Assembly (NCBI RefSeq): GCF_000518865.1
Contig: NZ_JAEK01000032.1
Span: forward strand, 1-55,675
DNA from: Bacillus sp. J37
GTDB lineage: Bacteria > Bacillota > Bacilli > Bacillales > Bacillaceae
Length of the DNA: 55,675 bases
Direction of reading: 5' to 3'
A program made the translations under genes and the position numbers. The notes below the pieces were generated by a model. That model worked only from the letters and a program-made list of their open reading frames with translations. It made no database searches and had not been told where the DNA came from. Numbering within the stretch: the first letter of the stretch is position 1; every line of letters begins with the position of its first letter. Of this stretch, positions 49,399-55,639 are shown piece by piece.

Positions 49399-49446
49399 GT
49401 AAGGATGATTTATTCTAAAAAAGTTGATAAAGGAGCGCTCACCATC

Positions 49447-49830
49447 ATGTATTCATATCCTTTTGCTTATCAAAACGAGCCTGTATCGCAATTCCCTTAT
49501 GGAGGACATCAAATGTATTATCCAACTTATTATGATCAGTTTCAACCAATGGAACAACGTCAACCTAACCTTGAAAGAAGAGTATCAACTCTCGAACGAC
49601 AATCTGAACGTCAAACAAGAGAACTCACAAGGCAAAATGAAGAAATAAAACGTTTAAATGAAGAAAACCGCAGAATGAACCGTGAGATAAGCCGGCTAAA
49701 TGAGCAAGTTGTTCGAGTTAATAATCGTGTCGAACAACATACCCGCCGTCTTAACCGACTTAACCAAAGATTGCGTGCGGTAGAAACCAAGTTTAGCCTG
49801 CCTTTTTCTCCAGATGAAGGTGGATTCTAG
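49447..49830 (+). CDS. Coiled-coil protein with aromatic head, probable spore surface protein
   Basis: The 127-residue product has a Tyr/Pro/Gln-rich head (MYSYPFAYQNEPVSQFPYGG; MYYPTYYDQF) and then a continuous coiled coil from about residue 38 to 110 in which R, E and N recur in heptads (RLNEENRRMNREISRLNEQV). There is no signal peptide or cysteine. Heads of this sort are common in Bacillus coat proteins. The start is ATG 49447 behind AAAGGAGCGCTC; the open frame extends 14 codons earlier. It is convergent with the adjacent peptide gene. I do not recognise a named homologue. Confidence 0.7.
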   Translation: MYSYPFAYQNEPVSQFPYGGHQMYYPTYYDQFQPMEQRQPNLERRVSTLERQSERQTRELTRQNEEIKRLNEENRRMNREISRLNEQVVRVNNRVEQHTRRLNRLNQRLRAVETKFSLPFSPDEGGF

Positions 49831-49941: not shown

Positions 49942-50082
49942 TTATTTAATTCTTTTAAAACAACAAGCACCTCTAGCTCCTCTGCTTTTAATAGTAACTT
50001 TTTTCGCAGTCTTTTTAATGCGATTTATGATTACGGGTGATTTATTATTACTCCCTCCATTATTACTACTGTAAGTACTCAA
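49942..50082 (-). CDS. Small basic peptide with Cys-Cys pair (46 aa)
   Basis: The gene begins at TTG (50080-50082) preceded by GGAGGG with a seven-base spacing. An in-frame ATG at 50097 would place that ribosome binding site inside the gene, so TTG is preferred. The 46-residue product has a Ser/Asn/Gly-rich head (STYSSNNGGSNNKSPV), a Lys/Arg-rich middle (NRIKKTAKKVTIKSRG) and ends GARGACCFKRIK. It has no membrane segment. A near-perfect sigma-K-type promoter lies 30 bases upstream. It follows the JAMM peptidase gene. I do not recognise it; a spore-surface or cross-linked peptide is the best guess. Confidence 0.65.
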   Translation of the reverse strand: MSTYSSNNGGSNNKSPVIINRIKKTAKKVTIKSRGARGACCFKRIK

Positions 50083-50111
50083 ATAATATCCCTCCATAAA
50101 ATAAATTTCTC

Positions 50112-50138
50112 TATATTATAAACAAGTGATAATCTTGT
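50112..50138 (-). promoter_or_regulatory. Sigma-K-like promoter of the small basic peptide
   Basis: Read on the minus strand: AC (50137-50138), exactly 16 bases, then TATAATATA (50112-50120), which matches CATANNNTA except for its first base. It lies in the gap just after the JAMM peptidase stop. Confidence 0.6.
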
Positions 50139-50146
50139 GGTTTGGA

Positions 50147-50554
50147 CTAATTGACAATTAATGTTGTTTCAAAAAAGCTTTTATTTACTATTTCATAACA
50201 TTTTATAACTGGCTTTTTTTTCTTTAATGAAATGATAATCATTTTCACATCATGATATGGATGATTAATTAAATCAAATTCAGATGGAATTGGAGATGTT
50301 TTGGGGTGTGAATGATAAATACCTAAAACATTCTCACCTTTATTGAAAATTTCATCAAATACATTTTGAACTTTTTCATTACTGACAAAATACCTGTTAA
50401 GTGACTTTGATTCATTTTTCAACTTCCATATAGAGCTGACTATATCATTTACTCCTGAGACAATTCCGCAGGCTTCGTACGGTTGTTCTGAACAACAGTG
50501 GTCTATTATCTTTTCATAATCATTTTGTTTCAAAGTTAACTTGTTGTTACTCAT
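50147..50554 (-). CDS. JAMM/MPN+ metallopeptidase (Mov34/PAD-1 type)
   Basis: The 135-residue protein is a stand-alone JAB1/MPN+ domain. It has the upstream glutamate (EACGIVSG, Glu27) and an exact zinc motif HxHx7SxxD in YHSHPKTSPIPSEFD (His81, His83, Ser91, Asp94), so it should be an active isopeptidase or peptidase. In eukaryotes the fold removes ubiquitin; bacterial members act on sulfur-carrier proteins, or as toxins or phage proteins. No ubiquitin-like partner is encoded nearby. Start ATG 50554 has CAAAGGAG upstream and overlaps the end of the coiled-coil gene by 8 bases, so the two are coupled. A natural target may be a neighbour. Confidence 0.88.
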   Translation of the reverse strand: MSNNKLTLKQNDYEKIIDHCCSEQPYEACGIVSGVNDIVSSIWKLKNESKSLNRYFVSNEKVQNVFDEIFNKGENVLGIYHSHPKTSPIPSEFDLINHPYHDVKMIIISLKKKKPVIKCYEIVNKSFFETTLIVN

Positions 50555-51434
50555 CAACTTTACTCCTTTGTATGGATGATATGGATTTTACGTCACCCTT
50601 TAACACTTTAGAGCTAAGTTCATTAATTGAAGGATCATTTGGAGTCTCAGAGAATATTTTTGGCTTTTCTTCATTTGTTTTGTTTCGAGTACTTATAAGC
50701 AACTCACTTTCTGCTTCTTTCAGATCTTTGTTCTTCCCTTTGTTTTGATCAATTAATTCAATTTTTTGTGGTTTCGGACTAGTAGGTGGTAAGAAACTAG
50801 CTTTTTGTGTTCTTTTAGATACACCTTGATAAAAGTTTGATATATCTTTTCCGAAGGGTACAGATAACTCAGGTAATATATTCTGGTAGGAAGTTGATGA
50901 TGATTTAATTATTTTTTGTAATTGCTGATAGCTTGTCGGTTGTATTTTATTCTTTGCTTGGGGTATTTGTTTCTGGGGTACAATATTTGATTTAAGAACT
51001 TCACCTTTTAGTTTGATTAGTTCATTCTTCAAATCCAGCAATTCTTTTTTTTCTTGTGTGATGGAGGATAATAACGTTTCCTCATTACGTATCAACGAAT
51101 CCATTTTTGCCATTAATTCATCCATGTTCAAACTATTCACTTTATCTGTTAAACCCTTAACTTTTTGCTTTACATTTTCTATAGATAAATTCATTGATTT
51201 AATTTCTTCCTTAAGCGCCGTTATCTGTTGAGATATATTCGTTATTTTAATAGTATGTTGGTCTCTGTTTCTTTCCATAACATCCTCTAATTCTAATATT
51301 TGCTTCATTAAATCGTAACACTCATTTTTCATAATTAGATAATCTTCAACAACATTACCAGATTTCATTGTTTCTAACGTTTGTTTATAAACAATGTACT
51401 TCTTCTTTAATCCCTCAATATCATCTTGTTTCAT
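50547..51434 (-). CDS. Long coiled-coil protein with disordered C-terminus
   Basis: The 295-residue protein has no signal peptide or membrane span. Residues about 25-150 form coiled coil (QTLETMKSGNV; QQITALKEEIKSMNLSIENV; LLDLKNELIKLKGEV). From about 150 on it is Pro/Ser/Lys-rich and probably disordered (VPQKQIPQAKNKIQPTS; SFLPPTSPKPQKI). GGAGATTGTTAGA precedes the ATG. Its stop overlaps the start of the JAMM peptidase. The architecture is like scaffold proteins of the spore coat or exosporium, but no homologue is recognised. It is divergent from the cysteine-rich protein gene. Confidence 0.7.
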   Translation of the reverse strand: MKQDDIEGLKKKYIVYKQTLETMKSGNVVEDYLIMKNECYDLMKQILELEDVMERNRDQHTIKITNISQQITALKEEIKSMNLSIENVKQKVKGLTDKVNSLNMDELMAKMDSLIRNEETLLSSITQEKKELLDLKNELIKLKGEVLKSNIVPQKQIPQAKNKIQPTSYQQLQKIIKSSSTSYQNILPELSVPFGKDISNFYQGVSKRTQKASFLPPTSPKPQKIELIDQNKGKNKDLKEAESELLISTRNKTNEEKPKIFSETPNDPSINELSSKVLKGDVKSISSIQRSKVDE

Positions 51435-51512: not shown

Positions 51513-51539
51513 ACCATTTTTACTACTAAACATATGCTA
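51513..51539 (+). promoter_or_regulatory. Sigma-K promoter of the cysteine-rich protein gene
   Basis: AC (51513-51514), exactly 16 bases, then CATATGCTA (51531-51539), a perfect match to AC-N16-CATANNNTA. Transcription would start near 51546, after the in-frame ATG at 51534 and before the start at 51582. Confidence 0.75.
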
Positions 51540-51581: not shown

Positions 51582-52217
51582 ATGCAAGCAAAAAACTTAA
51601 CAGGAGGCCAGGAGCTCCTTTGTATTAATACTGAGAAGGTATATGACTGGATTCTTAATGAAGCTTCGTTTGATTTAACGATCGCTGATGAAGATCTACC
51701 TGTAATCGGTGAAGATGGAATTACTTGTGATGATCTTACTGGTCCTGTCACATGTGAAGTAACTGCAGTAGGTACTGAAGTTCTAAATCGCGAAGATAGA
51801 GAATTTGTTATTGACGGAGCATTAGTTACTCTTCAGTTAGTAACTATTCGCAAAAACTTCACGGTTACTTTCTTCTTCCCAACGTTATTAGGTACTGGTG
51901 AAGCATCTTTTGATTTCTCTCGCTGTGAACAAGTCGTATTATGTGCACCAGAAGGAACTGCAGTTGAGGTAACTTATCCTGAATTAGATTGCTTTATCTG
52001 TACGTTCGAATGTGATGACCTTGCAGATACATTTGATGCAACTGTTACTGTACGTCTATGCCAAAGCATTCAGTCAACATTCCCTGTTACACTTGAAATT
52101 GTTGCTGATTTCTGTCAACCAAGAGATATTCTACCTACTCCTGCTTGCCCAACTCCAACATTACCACCACAATGTCCTGTACTATTCCCGGATAATGATG
52201 GTGCTGACGAGGATTAA
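51582..52217 (+). CDS. Cysteine-rich beta-strand protein, probable spore outer-layer protein
   Basis: The 211-residue product has about twelve cysteines scattered through a beta-rich sequence (ELLCINTEKVYDWILNE; GITCDDLTGPVTCEV; LDCFICTFECDD; RLCQSI) and ends with a Pro/Cys tail (PTPACPTPTLPPQCPVL) and an acidic finish (DNDGADED). No signal peptide. I start at ATG 51582 (MQAKNLTGG) because CGGAGGTG lies just upstream and the sigma-K promoter would begin transcription after the earlier ATG. The KVYDWI segment recalls surface proteins of spores in Bacillaceae, but I cannot place it in a named family. Self-assembly through disulfides is possible. Confidence 0.65.
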   Translation: MQAKNLTGGQELLCINTEKVYDWILNEASFDLTIADEDLPVIGEDGITCDDLTGPVTCEVTAVGTEVLNREDREFVIDGALVTLQLVTIRKNFTVTFFFPTLLGTGEASFDFSRCEQVVLCAPEGTAVEVTYPELDCFICTFECDDLADTFDATVTVRLCQSIQSTFPVTLEIVADFCQPRDILPTPACPTPTLPPQCPVLFPDNDGADED

Positions 52218-52281: not shown

Positions 52282-52836
52282 ATGGAGAAAAACAAAGAAT
52301 TGATCGTTCTTCAGGAAAAAATTAGGAAAATTGAACAACAAACTTCTTTTTACTTAAAAGAAATAAAGAATTTACTCTCAAGCAACCCAACAGGAAATGA
52401 ACTAAATATAATTAGTTATTTTACATATACAACGAATCTCTCACATGATAAAGATCTAGAACATATGATGATTGGCACTTACCATATCCATAACTTAGGG
52501 AAAAAAACGATAACAAATCCATATATATGTTTAAAACTCTCTTCAAATTCACCGTTTCAATTTTCCGGAAAATATATAAATAAAAATTCCAATCTGTCAA
52601 TGAAACTAAATGATGCCTGGGAACGATTGAATAATCAATCAGATAAAGAGGAATATTGGCTTAAACCACTAGGAGAAGAATCATTAGCTCCATCACAGAT
52701 CATCTCTTTTCCTAATTTTCAAGTGAAATGGCACTCGAATAAACCATATTCTGGTAGTATTACAGGGTTTACCTATTTTGATGAAAAGAAAGAAGGTATA
52801 CCCTCTATTAATCAAATAAGTGTAAGTGGAAATTAA
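52282..52836 (+). CDS. Unknown protein with coiled-coil head and beta domain
   Basis: The 184-residue product starts with a short coiled coil (ELIVLQEKIRKIEQQTSFYL) and continues with a beta-rich domain (YHIHNLGKKTITNPYICLKL; FPNFQVKWHSNKPYSGSITG) with no cysteine or signal peptide. AAGGAGTGTAAGTTT precedes the ATG. It starts just after a strong terminator of the cysteine-rich gene, so it needs its own promoter or readthrough. It is followed after 17 bases by a 103-residue gene. I do not recognise a family; the beta part resembles Ig-like accessory domains. Confidence 0.6.
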   Translation: MEKNKELIVLQEKIRKIEQQTSFYLKEIKNLLSSNPTGNELNIISYFTYTTNLSHDKDLEHMMIGTYHIHNLGKKTITNPYICLKLSSNSPFQFSGKYINKNSNLSMKLNDAWERLNNQSDKEEYWLKPLGEESLAPSQIISFPNFQVKWHSNKPYSGSITGFTYFDEKKEGIPSINQISVSGN

Positions 52837-52853: not shown

Positions 52854-53165
52854 ATGAGTTCTGATGAGAAATTAGATCCTGAACTTGTGTTAAAGAAATT
52901 AACTCATAAGCTAATAAAAGATAAGCTTGAACAATTAAAAAGTAAAAACAAAGATGATCACAGTTTTATCTATTTAGAGAGCAATACGTTAAGTATGTTA
53001 CTTATGTATCTCTTAAATAACACCGAAAAGCAAAAAACTGATAATTCAACCGCAACAGACGAAAATGACTTTTCCTCAATTGAGTTAATTAAAGAATTGG
53101 ACACATTAATTATAAAGAATAAAAAAGAATTTGAAGATATTATTGATCAGTTAAAAGATAAATAA
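52854..53165 (+). CDS. Small helical acidic/basic protein of unknown function (103 aa)
   Basis: The 103-residue protein is hydrophilic and alpha-helical (SSDEKLDPELVLKKLTHKL; ESNTLSMLLMYLLNNTEKQK; TLIIKNKKEFEDIIDQLKDK). It has no cysteine or signal peptide. GTGAGGTGAAGAAAT precedes the ATG and it lies 17 bases after the previous gene, so the two form an operon. Its stop is nine bases before the IS21 left end; the gene is not obviously truncated. Unknown function. Confidence 0.6.
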   Translation: MSSDEKLDPELVLKKLTHKLIKDKLEQLKSKNKDDHSFIYLESNTLSMLLMYLLNNTEKQKTDNSTATDENDFSSIELIKELDTLIIKNKKEFEDIIDQLKDK

Positions 53166-53309
53166 TATCTTCCTGTGACTGCTAGAATAAAGTGTACAGT
53201 TTTTGCTTGATAAGATGAAACGCTTATTTACCCAAATATACCAGCAAAAAATATCAACCTATCACTGTAAAATGATCATAGTTCATACTTGCAGTGGAGG
53301 TTAGCGAAG

Positions 53310-54872
53310 GTGGATAAGTGGGAAATGTACATGGAGATAAAGCAATTATTAAAGCAAGGATTTAGTCAGACAAAGATAGCTGAAAAGTTAGGGGTTTCTC
53401 GAACAACTGTTTACAGGCACTTAAAGAGATCTCCTTCGGAGATGGCGGAATGGGTTGATTCTCTTCAGTATAAAAAGAAAAAATTAGATCCATATAAAGA
53501 ACTGATTTTATCTTGGTTGAGAATGCATCCGGATATGTCAGCAGCACAAATTTATGATTGGCTTTTAGAGAAATATAAAGATCTAACTGTTGGAGAAAGT
53601 ACAGTAAGAACATATGTAAAAGCATTAAGAGAAGAATACAAAATAAATAAGGAAACATCTCCTCGAATGTATGAGGCAATTCCTGATCCCCCAATGGGAG
53701 AACAAATGCAAGTAGATTTTGGTCATACGAGACAAAAAACTGTTGATAATAAGGAAGCCAAACTCAACTTTATAGCTTTTGTCTTATCACATTCTAGACA
53801 AAAGTATAAAGAGTGGTTGGATAGACCATTTACAACACGGGATGTTATACAAGCCCATGAGAACGCGTTTAAATGGTATGGAGGAATGACCAATGAGATC
53901 GTTTATGACCAAGATAGTTTAATTGTTGTTAGCGAAAATGGTGGAGATCTAATTTTAACTAAAGAATTTCAGCAGTATAGAGAATCCAGAGGAATAAACC
54001 TTCGGGTTTGTAGAAAAGCTGACCCTGAGAGTAAGGGAAGAATAGAAAATGTAGTTGGATTTATCAAACAAAACTATGCCAAACATAGAGTGTTTCATAA
54101 CATCGACTCTTGGAATGAGCAAGGATGGGAATGGCTGAACAGAACGGGTAACTATAAAATACACAATACAACAAAAAAGAGACCATTCGAAGTGTTCCTC
54201 CTGGAAAAGCAACACTTAAAACCAGTCTCCCAAAATATAGATATTCAAAATAACTATGAGATAAGTATAGCAAGATGTGTTCATAAGGACAATACTATTC
54301 GTTACCAATCTAATCGGTACTCTCTTCCACTTGGAACTTATAACAAATATGAAAAAGTATGTATCAAGGAAACGGAGACTAAAGAATTAGTTATTTATAT
54401 ACCTGATACTGGCGAAATTATTGCAAAACATTCAATTCCCGAAGGGAAAGGGATGTTAATAAAAGATAAAAAACATAGTAGGGATCGTACAAAAGGTGTT
54501 GGAGCATTCATTAATACAGTGGCTGAGAGATTTGAAGATAAAGAACTAGCCTTTAAATATTTAGAGAAGGTTAGGGAAAAAAATCCTCGTTACATTAAAG
54601 ACCAGTTGCAAATCATCTTGCGCGAAACAAAAGGTATCGATAACGAAGTACTGACTAAAGCGTTAGCAGAGTGTTTAAAAAGGAAATTATACAGTGCAAC
54701 TGATTTTGGCGATATCATTGCATATGTGAAACGTCAGCGCCAGGTACATGAAACAGTTATTGATAAAAAGAAAGAAGTTAAGACTTTGAACAGGCTATCA
54801 GAATGGGTTTTAGAAACAGAAGCATACAAAAGAAAAGTAGATACTTACACGGTTTTAATGGAGGTTGAATAG
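53310..54872 (+). CDS. istA: IS21-family transposase IstA
   Basis: IstA is the DDE transposase of IS21. The 520-residue protein has an N-terminal helix-turn-helix (KQGFSQTKIAEKLGVSRTTV), the catalytic core with VDFGHTRQK and IVYDQDSLI (first and second acidic positions), and SKGRIENVVGFIKQNY with the third (glutamate). I start at GTG 53310 (MDKWEMYMEI) behind TGGAGGTTAGCGAAG; the longer open frame from TTG 53289 would include the ribosome binding site. Length is normal and no stop or frameshift is seen. Confidence 0.93.
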   Translation: MDKWEMYMEIKQLLKQGFSQTKIAEKLGVSRTTVYRHLKRSPSEMAEWVDSLQYKKKKLDPYKELILSWLRMHPDMSAAQIYDWLLEKYKDLTVGESTVRTYVKALREEYKINKETSPRMYEAIPDPPMGEQMQVDFGHTRQKTVDNKEAKLNFIAFVLSHSRQKYKEWLDRPFTTRDVIQAHENAFKWYGGMTNEIVYDQDSLIVVSENGGDLILTKEFQQYRESRGINLRVCRKADPESKGRIENVVGFIKQNYAKHRVFHNIDSWNEQGWEWLNRTGNYKIHNTTKKRPFEVFLLEKQHLKPVSQNIDIQNNYEISIARCVHKDNTIRYQSNRYSLPLGTYNKYEKVCIKETETKELVIYIPDTGEIIAKHSIPEGKGMLIKDKKHSRDRTKGVGAFINTVAERFEDKELAFKYLEKVREKNPRYIKDQLQIILRETKGIDNEVLTKALAECLKRKLYSATDFGDIIAYVKRQRQVHETVIDKKKEVKTLNRLSEWVLETEAYKRKVDTYTVLMEVE

Positions 54873-54874
54873 CG

Positions 54875-55639
54875 ATGAGCCAAATCCAACAATTACAAGA
54901 CATAATGAAAGGGTTAAGACTCGTTGAAACTGCCAAGCATCTCCCCCATTTGATCAGAGAAGCTGAGCAAAAAGACCTTTCATTTACTCAATTCCTGTTA
55001 GATGTCACTTCTTATGAGCAAACTCGAAGAGAAGAAAAGCAACTAAACAACCGATTAAAGTGGGCAACTTTCCCTTTCAGCAAAACACTTGAGGAGTTTA
55101 ATTTAAAAGAACAAAAGTCTTTAAGCAACAAACAACTAAATAGATTAAAAGATTTAACTTGGATAGAACAGCTGTACAATTTGATTTTATTAGGGCCACC
55201 AGGTGTAGGTAAAACTCACCTGGCCGTAGGCCTAGGAATAGAGGCTATTAACCAAGGGTATAAAGCGATATTCACATCAATGGGAGATTTAATTCATAAC
55301 CTGAAAACAGAAGAAATCACACGAAAGTCAAAAGCAAGAATGAAAAGAATTAGAGAGGCTGATTTAGTCATAATAGATGACTTAATGTTTATGGCAATGG
55401 ATCAACAAGAAGCTAATATGTTCTTTCATTTAATTAATGACTTGTATAATCAGTCTTCCATTATCTTGACCTCTAATAAGGCACCAAAAGAATGGGGAGA
55501 ATTATTGGGTGATCAAGCTATAACAACAGCAATTCTAGATAGGATTCTTCACCGAGTAGAAATCATTCATTTAAATGAAGATAGTTATCGTATGAAGCAT
55601 CGTTCTACCATATTTGGGGAACAAAGTGTTTCAAAATAA
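54875..55639 (+). CDS. istB: IS21-family helper ATPase IstB
   Basis: IstB is the AAA+ ATPase that aids IstA in target capture. The 254-residue protein has the Walker A motif LLGPPGVGKTHLAVGLG, Walker B LVIIDDLMFM and sensor residues ILTSNKAPKEWG, after an N-terminal helical IstA-binding part. It begins two bases after the istA stop, so translation is coupled. It is intact; the stop lies 36 bases inside the right end. Confidence 0.95.
   Translation: MSQIQQLQDIMKGLRLVETAKHLPHLIREAEQKDLSFTQFLLDVTSYEQTRREEKQLNNRLKWATFPFSKTLEEFNLKEQKSLSNKQLNRLKDLTWIEQLYNLILLGPPGVGKTHLAVGLGIEAINQGYKAIFTSMGDLIHNLKTEEITRKSKARMKRIREADLVIIDDLMFMAMDQQEANMFFHLINDLYNQSSIILTSNKAPKEWGELLGDQAITTAILDRILHRVEIIHLNEDSYRMKHRSTIFGEQSVSK

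Follow-up and report, generated by a model that had tools for sequence, protein, structure and literature searches.

What does a JAMM peptidase act upon when its gene stands beside a spore coat gene? The question is raised by a locus of Bacillus sp. J37 in the 55,675-nucleotide stretch of DNA analysed here (the window; contig NZ_JAEK01000032.1), in which an earlier note had read three consecutive minus-strand genes as one module of scaffold, JAMM enzyme and Cys-Cys peptide that may act at the spore surface. The three genes are indeed there. The first gene of the operon (51434-50547, minus strand) encodes a coiled-coil/disordered scaffold of 295 residues. The second, for a JAMM/MPN+ metallopeptidase of 135 residues (50147..50554, minus strand), begins with an ATG at 50554 that overlaps the final 8 nt of the scaffold gene and has its stop at 50147. 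The third (49942..50082, minus strand) encodes a basic peptide of 46 residues with a C-terminal Cys-Cys (GACCFKRIK); GGAGGG precedes its TTG start at 50082, and its C-terminal end reads GARGACCFKRIK. Relatives of the peptide in two other loci (L025 and L026) have Leu at the position of this TTG, and thus probably use a TTG start there too. Divergent from these genes is one for a morphogenetic spore coat protein of the BMQ_0737 family (51582..52217, plus strand), followed by genes for two partner families, C1 (184 residues; 52282..52836, plus strand; without a Pfam match) and C5 (103 residues; 52854..53165, plus strand). Beyond the module lies an IS21-type element (IstA/IstB; 53289..55639, plus strand; IstB_IS21, E 1.3e-69), with which the contig ends. 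In relatives this position is held by C3, a long gene for a coiled-coil coat protein; the single match to C3 in this genome is on another contig (G000:C59), which would fit an element placed between C5 and C3. At the other end, a coiled-coil protein of 141 residues (49405-49830, plus strand) faces the peptide gene, and L025 and L026 have it next to their modules too.

Active site and predicted fold of the JAMM protein

By its residues and its predicted fold, the window protein is a JAMM/MPN+ metallopeptidase. It matches Pfam Prok-JAB (E 1.8e-17), and the full catalytic set that the earlier note had read as intact, the upstream Glu and the HxHx7SxxD stretch (HSHPKTSPIPSEFD; 50273..50314, minus strand), is present as E27, H81, H83, S91 and D94, all invariant in a 21-row alignment. 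Among 78 close relatives the Glu is found in 78 and the other four residues in 77, the one gapped row being L070, where the JAMM frame is broken. An AlphaFold model built from a 10-row alignment (pLDDT 89.6) has the MPN fold; its best PDB match is Pyrococcus furiosus JAMM1 (PfJAMM1; 5ld9/5lda, TM 0.84-0.85), which was solved with SAMP2. The sequence closest to the family profile in the PDB is 2kks, DSY2949 of Desulfitobacterium hafniense (E 3.6e-30). The desampylase model gives 61.7 bits, below its cut-off of 130, and the CBASS Cap3 model 15.5 bits, below its cut-off of 200; PADLOC returns JAB-family matches of 42 bits at best.

Distribution and genomic neighbourhood

JAMM matches are found in 13 of 150 related genomes (a count that includes the window genome), in 52 of 397 genomes of the order and, with distant ones counted, in 124 of 348 genomes of the class. 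These counts are uneven, as a single family (f28) supplies 12 of the 52 genomes of the order scan and several genera give many genomes. The close set comprises 78 loci, with L003 and L004 omitted as the same places as L140 and L141; from the class scan, 20 of the 30 high-scoring matches in new genomes were analysed, together with 20 lower-scoring ones. A gene of the BMQ_0737 family lies within 10 kb of the JAMM gene in 76 of the 78 close loci, drawn from about 25 families, at a median distance of 2.2 kb between midpoints, versus none of the 20 lower-scoring loci. The two close loci without it are L070, with its broken JAMM frame, and L151, on a contig of 3.2 kb. A C1 gene is present in 63 of the 78. 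The spore-surface setting proposed for the enzyme is thus borne out by its neighbours, and a role there is strongly supported, as far as gene neighbourhoods can speak for function. The converse does not hold: 192 of the 397 genomes have a BMQ gene and 52 a JAMM gene, and most BMQ genomes are without a JAMM. In one genus (g1), none of the 16 genomes that lack JAMM showed a BMQ gene either.

The lower-scoring JAMM loci have other company. By eye, many include genes for NAPRT, DUF72, NifU-like/Suf or ThiF proteins, and four such neighbour genes were confirmed by Pfam. In about half of the 20 (L161-L165, L167-L170 and L176) a second type of JAMM lies beside NAPRT, often with DUF72; both were confirmed by Pfam in L164 and recognized by eye in the others. 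This neighbourhood links a JAMM with NAD salvage. In a one-clade test on the JAMM tree, no branch fully separates the high-scoring from the low-scoring tier, and the best division, with a support of 0.95, misplaces L160, L172 and L179. L160 groups with the JAMMs of loci with long BMQ proteins and sits on a contig of 7.4 kb that lacks its flank, and hence may be a truncated member of that group. A phage origin of the enzyme was considered and set aside: the viral scan yielded 56 loci with distant JAMMs only, all at most 33% identical.

The outer-coat module with and without the JAMM gene

The window coat protein scores 198.5 bits against the NCBIfam BMQ_0737 model (NF052457; cut-off 71). A fold search with it gave nothing at an E value of 0.001 or below, and it has no sequence relative in the PDB. 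An identity as a SPOCS/DUF3794 protein, given in the UniRef names of some relatives, was rejected, as Pfam finds no such match in five BMQ proteins. The gene is preceded by an exact sigma-K-type site (ACCATTTTTACTACTAAACATATGCTA; 51513..51539, plus strand), as judged by the sigma-K consensus. Sites of this type stand before 56 of 94 genes of the BMQ family, where shuffles would give 2.2. The coat gene thus has a promoter pattern of late mother-cell (sigma-K) type. To the earlier note the flanking promoters looked sigma-K dependent; this stands for the BMQ side, but not for the scaffold side, where the window has no exact match and 3 of 21 scaffold genes have one (0.5 expected). Upstream of the JAMM gene such sites occur in 4 of 30 loci with short BMQ proteins, the window type (4.3 expected), and in 18 of 46 loci with long ones (5.2 expected); eight f28 loci have a common site 1.1-1.3 kb upstream of the JAMM gene.

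The small peptide recurs along with the enzyme. Its profile matches ORFs in 11 further related loci, with the ORF midpoint 327-422 nt past that of the JAMM gene, and judging by these positions its recurrence downstream of the JAMM gene is more than chance; their tails read GGCC, where the window peptide has GACC. More broadly, a basic ORF of 25-90 residues that has CC or CxC close to the C-terminal end and a charge of at least +4 adjoins the JAMM gene in 68 of the 78 close loci, and a Cys-tailed peptide lies farther off in three more. The same rule is satisfied in 1 of the 20 lower-scoring loci and by 34 of 1023 control ORFs; among the 25 of these that were listed, none resembles the peptide family. 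Where adjacent, the peptide lies upstream of the JAMM gene in all 44 loci with long BMQ proteins and downstream in all 24 with short ones. In the searches run, the peptide proved to be conserved, viral contigs gave distant JAMMs only, and ThiF or ThiS was near the JAMM gene in two of the 57 genomes covered.

The closed three-gene module of the earlier note does not survive this comparison, for much of the same set flanks BMQ genes in genomes that have no JAMM. A Cys-tailed peptide (here with a charge of at least +7, anywhere in the stretch) is found in 17 of 20 such loci; this rule is matched in 67 of 76 close JAMM loci and, by junk-looking ORFs, in 3 of 19 lower-scoring ones. In 11 of 14 mapped loci without JAMM, the divergent BMQ gene is separated from the peptide by a coiled-coil-like gene; of the others, L192 and L197 differ and in L182 the peptide is not drawn. 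The window scaffold itself is found in 6 of 150 genomes, its own included, and scaffold-family genes in 18 of the 78 close JAMM loci, whereas other coiled-coil genes occupy its position in JAMM-less loci. The presence of the peptide and the coiled coil beside BMQ without JAMM points to a common module of peptide, coiled coil, BMQ and usually C1, and on this comparative evidence the JAMM gene looks like an optional insert into it. The coiled-coil proteins of the module (seen in L027, L029-L031, L036 and L180-L199) have short C-terminal tails that differ from lineage to lineage (SFFSFFQRGK, NPFK, SWFF and others), perhaps an attachment signal. In L039 (of genome G137, which has no JAMM match), L045 and L066 a second partial module of peptide and second BMQ gene adjoins the first, with a short scaffold in L039 and L066.

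An N-terminal motif in the coat protein

What differs between loci with and without JAMM is a short tag near the N-terminus of the BMQ protein, [I/L]-x-G-[S/G/A]-Q, which in the window is LTGGQ (51597..51611, plus strand). The coat gene probably starts at 51582 (MQAKNLTGGQ), as judged from the sigma-K site, the ribosome site and relatives. In the wider form [I/L]-x-G-x-Q, the motif is present in 73 of 75 scored loci with JAMM (72 with strict I/L, L065 having FTGGQ) and in 85 of their 96 scored BMQ proteins (83 strict), as against 2 of 68 distinct loci without JAMM from 67 genomes. The former count leaves out the 3 of 78 loci without a scorable BMQ protein (L070, L151 and L154), and the latter excludes the duplicate L189/L239, L206 and the repeat L258. 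The JAMM-less total combines first sets, with the motif in 4 of 55 proteins and 2 of 47 loci, and a further set of 23 genomes (G154 among them already in the earlier sets) that was expected beforehand to be motif-free; none of its 24 scored loci has the N-terminal motif, 16 of them being of the long BMQ type and one having a loose match, FFGEQ, near residue 29. Rows in which the core pattern was missing were omitted: 3 of 99 from JAMM loci, 6 of 61 from JAMM-less genomes, five in the further set, and 1 of 13 proteins at other loci of JAMM genomes. The two JAMM loci without the motif (L043 and L067, genus g67) have LTGGQ-bearing BMQ copies elsewhere in their genomes (L214 and L215), and the two JAMM-less genomes with it (G137 and G245) belong to genera with JAMM-bearing sisters. 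JAMM genomes also contain BMQ copies that lack the motif, 11 of the 96 copies at the JAMM locus and 7 of the 12 at other sampled loci. Outside this protein the tag is rare: 79 of 1492 ORFs of JAMM loci have it within their first 22 residues, 76 of them BMQ-like, and 6 of 669 ORFs of JAMM-less loci, 3 of them BMQ-like.

Within the motif, the first residue is Ile in 61 and Leu in 22 of 85 proteins, and the Gly falls at residue 6-14 by the start chosen in the analysis. The residue after it is Ser in 28, Gly in 23 and Ala in 12 (63 of 85 together); R, Q, C, K, N, Y and F occur there too. Codon choice in the motif is free, with all four codons for Gly and both for Gln represented, which indicates that the protein is the conserved entity. 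In the predicted model of the window BMQ protein, taken from an upstream ATG so that the motif is L22-Q26, residues 1-24 have pLDDT below 50, and the first strand begins at Q26. On the BMQ core tree the JAMM gene changes state only about 7 times, so that the large contrast per locus is partly one of shared ancestry. With one protein per locus, six independent pairs give about 4 in which the motif goes with JAMM, 0 against and about 2 without difference (median p 0.125); when every protein is included, the 11 pairs divide into 3.5 with, none against and 7.5 without difference (median p 0.25). The association is therefore consistent in direction and not significant in this tree test.

A candidate leader cut and its alternatives

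Since the N-terminal motif is the feature that distinguishes loci with JAMM from those without, the likeliest substrate of the enzyme would be the N-terminus of the BMQ protein rather than the scaffold or the peptide. Ubiquitin ends in L73-R74-G75-G76 (LRGG), and the sequences LTGG-Q, IRGS-Q and LRGA-Q of the coat proteins resemble this tail. JAMM proteases are described as cutting linear bonds behind Gly-containing tails in the accessible text of two papers: CsRpn11 cuts a linear bond exactly after Gly-Gly (PMC6043591), DRJAMM cleaves MoaD-MoaE and leaves a C-terminal Gly (PMC8832034), and for HvJAMM1 the diglycine is dispensable in linear fusions (PMC6043591, PMC8832034). Given such linear cuts and the ubiquitin-like look of the motif, the JAMM enzyme may clip the BMQ leader, at LTGGQ in the window, either after the invariant Gly or, in the manner of LRGG, after the next residue; as the sequences stand, a variable residue after the Gly would be unusual at P1. 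Such a cut would license the assembly of the outermost coat layer or set its timing, with the scaffold and peptide as structural partners. That the enzyme is an optional part of the outer-coat module and matures BMQ_0737 in this way, by a leader cut at [I/L]-x-G-[S/G/A]-Q, is a proposition on which we are evenly balanced. The more general idea, in which a ubiquitin-free JAMM recognizes an LRGG-like tail at the front of a coat protein and cuts it to license outermost-layer assembly, a leader-peptide maturation in sporulating bacteria, is plausible and stands a little short of an even chance.

The motif might instead be a docking or assembly signal unrelated to cleavage, with the JAMM acting elsewhere in the layer and both being inherited together. 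The few JAMM changes on the tree, with a sign test that is not significant, and the retention of the tag in two JAMM-less genomes would suit this, but the tag lies in a poorly ordered tail, behind leaders of variable length and with an invariant Gly, as JAMM sites do, and it is absent from the 16 long BMQ proteins of the further JAMM-less genomes; we consider such a docking role unlikely. A cut of the co-encoded peptide between Gly and Cys, by which the Cys pair would be taken off or uncovered and disulfide cross-linking in the outer coat thereby controlled, appears rather improbable. It was initially favoured. For it speak the position of the peptide gene beside the JAMM gene, a Gly before the first Cys in 58 of 68 peptides, and QbsD and Mec+, JAMMs that act at Gly-Gly-Cys. 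It was demoted because the same kind of peptide is found in the JAMM-less BMQ loci, in some with an identical GGCGC tail, and because the Gly is missing in 10 of 68, the window having Ala (GACC).

The overlap of the JAMM start with the scaffold gene, the scaffold-family genes in close loci and other coiled-coil-like proteins seen by eye beside the JAMM in several mapped loci are what speaks for the earlier note's view, trimming or cross-link editing by the enzyme, when applied to the scaffold. This is improbable in the face of related scaffolds without JAMM in G109 and G137, and of coiled-coil genes holding the same position in JAMM-less loci. Scaffold length, read by eye as a sign of JAMM processing, was discarded too, G137 having a 360-residue scaffold without JAMM. 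Finally, the enzyme could serve a ubiquitin-like or sulfur-carrier protein encoded elsewhere, as its PfJAMM1-like fold and its desampylase match below the cut-off might hint. This we regard as very improbable: among the 57 genomes covered, out of 77 with JAMM, ThiF or ThiS lies within 12 kb of the JAMM gene in two (G014 and G261, distances by eye) and not in the window genome; G192 has neither ThiF nor ThiS at the thresholds used; and such genes or Suf genes instead accompany some of the lower-scoring JAMMs.

Relation to known systems and implications

The leader cut, if it takes place, would set a known enzyme class to work in another context. The window JAMM shares its whole-domain fold and catalytic residues with PfJAMM1, one of the stand-alone archaeal JAMMs, which in the accessible accounts cut linear bonds after a Gly-containing tail. 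It differs in having no ubiquitin-like partner found nearby and in its linkage with a spore coat gene, and its candidate target is an N-terminal leader rather than the C-terminus of a ubiquitin-like protein (Ubl). With QbsD, Mec+ and CBASS Cap3 it has the JAMM chemistry in common; those enzymes accompany Ubl/E1-type partners. DSY2949, which is listed as uncharacterized, is likened to it by its sequence. To our knowledge, the assembly and locking of the outermost spore layer are poorly understood outside B. subtilis and B. cereus. The coat protein is likened through its family model to BMQ_0737 of Bacillus (Priestia) megaterium, which the accessible text of PMC4656864 describes as an outermost spore protein; the JAMM occurs in only part of this family's genomes. 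We found no report of a JAMM in a spore-coat setting in the open-licence literature on JAMMs, BMQ_0737 and coat metalloproteases: in the survey of JAB proteins by Iyer 2006 (PMC1779556), the accessible main text has no word beginning with spore or sporulation, and the accessible portions of PMC10659427 and PMC4674009 do not mention JAMM.

What emerges is a known enzyme class in a new setting, together with a new partner and a candidate site. The analysis names an enzyme and a substrate, both as candidates, and a site of five residues that occurs in about 25 families of the class. If the proposal is true, it would make this a JAMM that works without any ubiquitin-like partner, and the recognition of a ubiquitin tail would have been reused for the maturation of a leader in sporulating bacteria.
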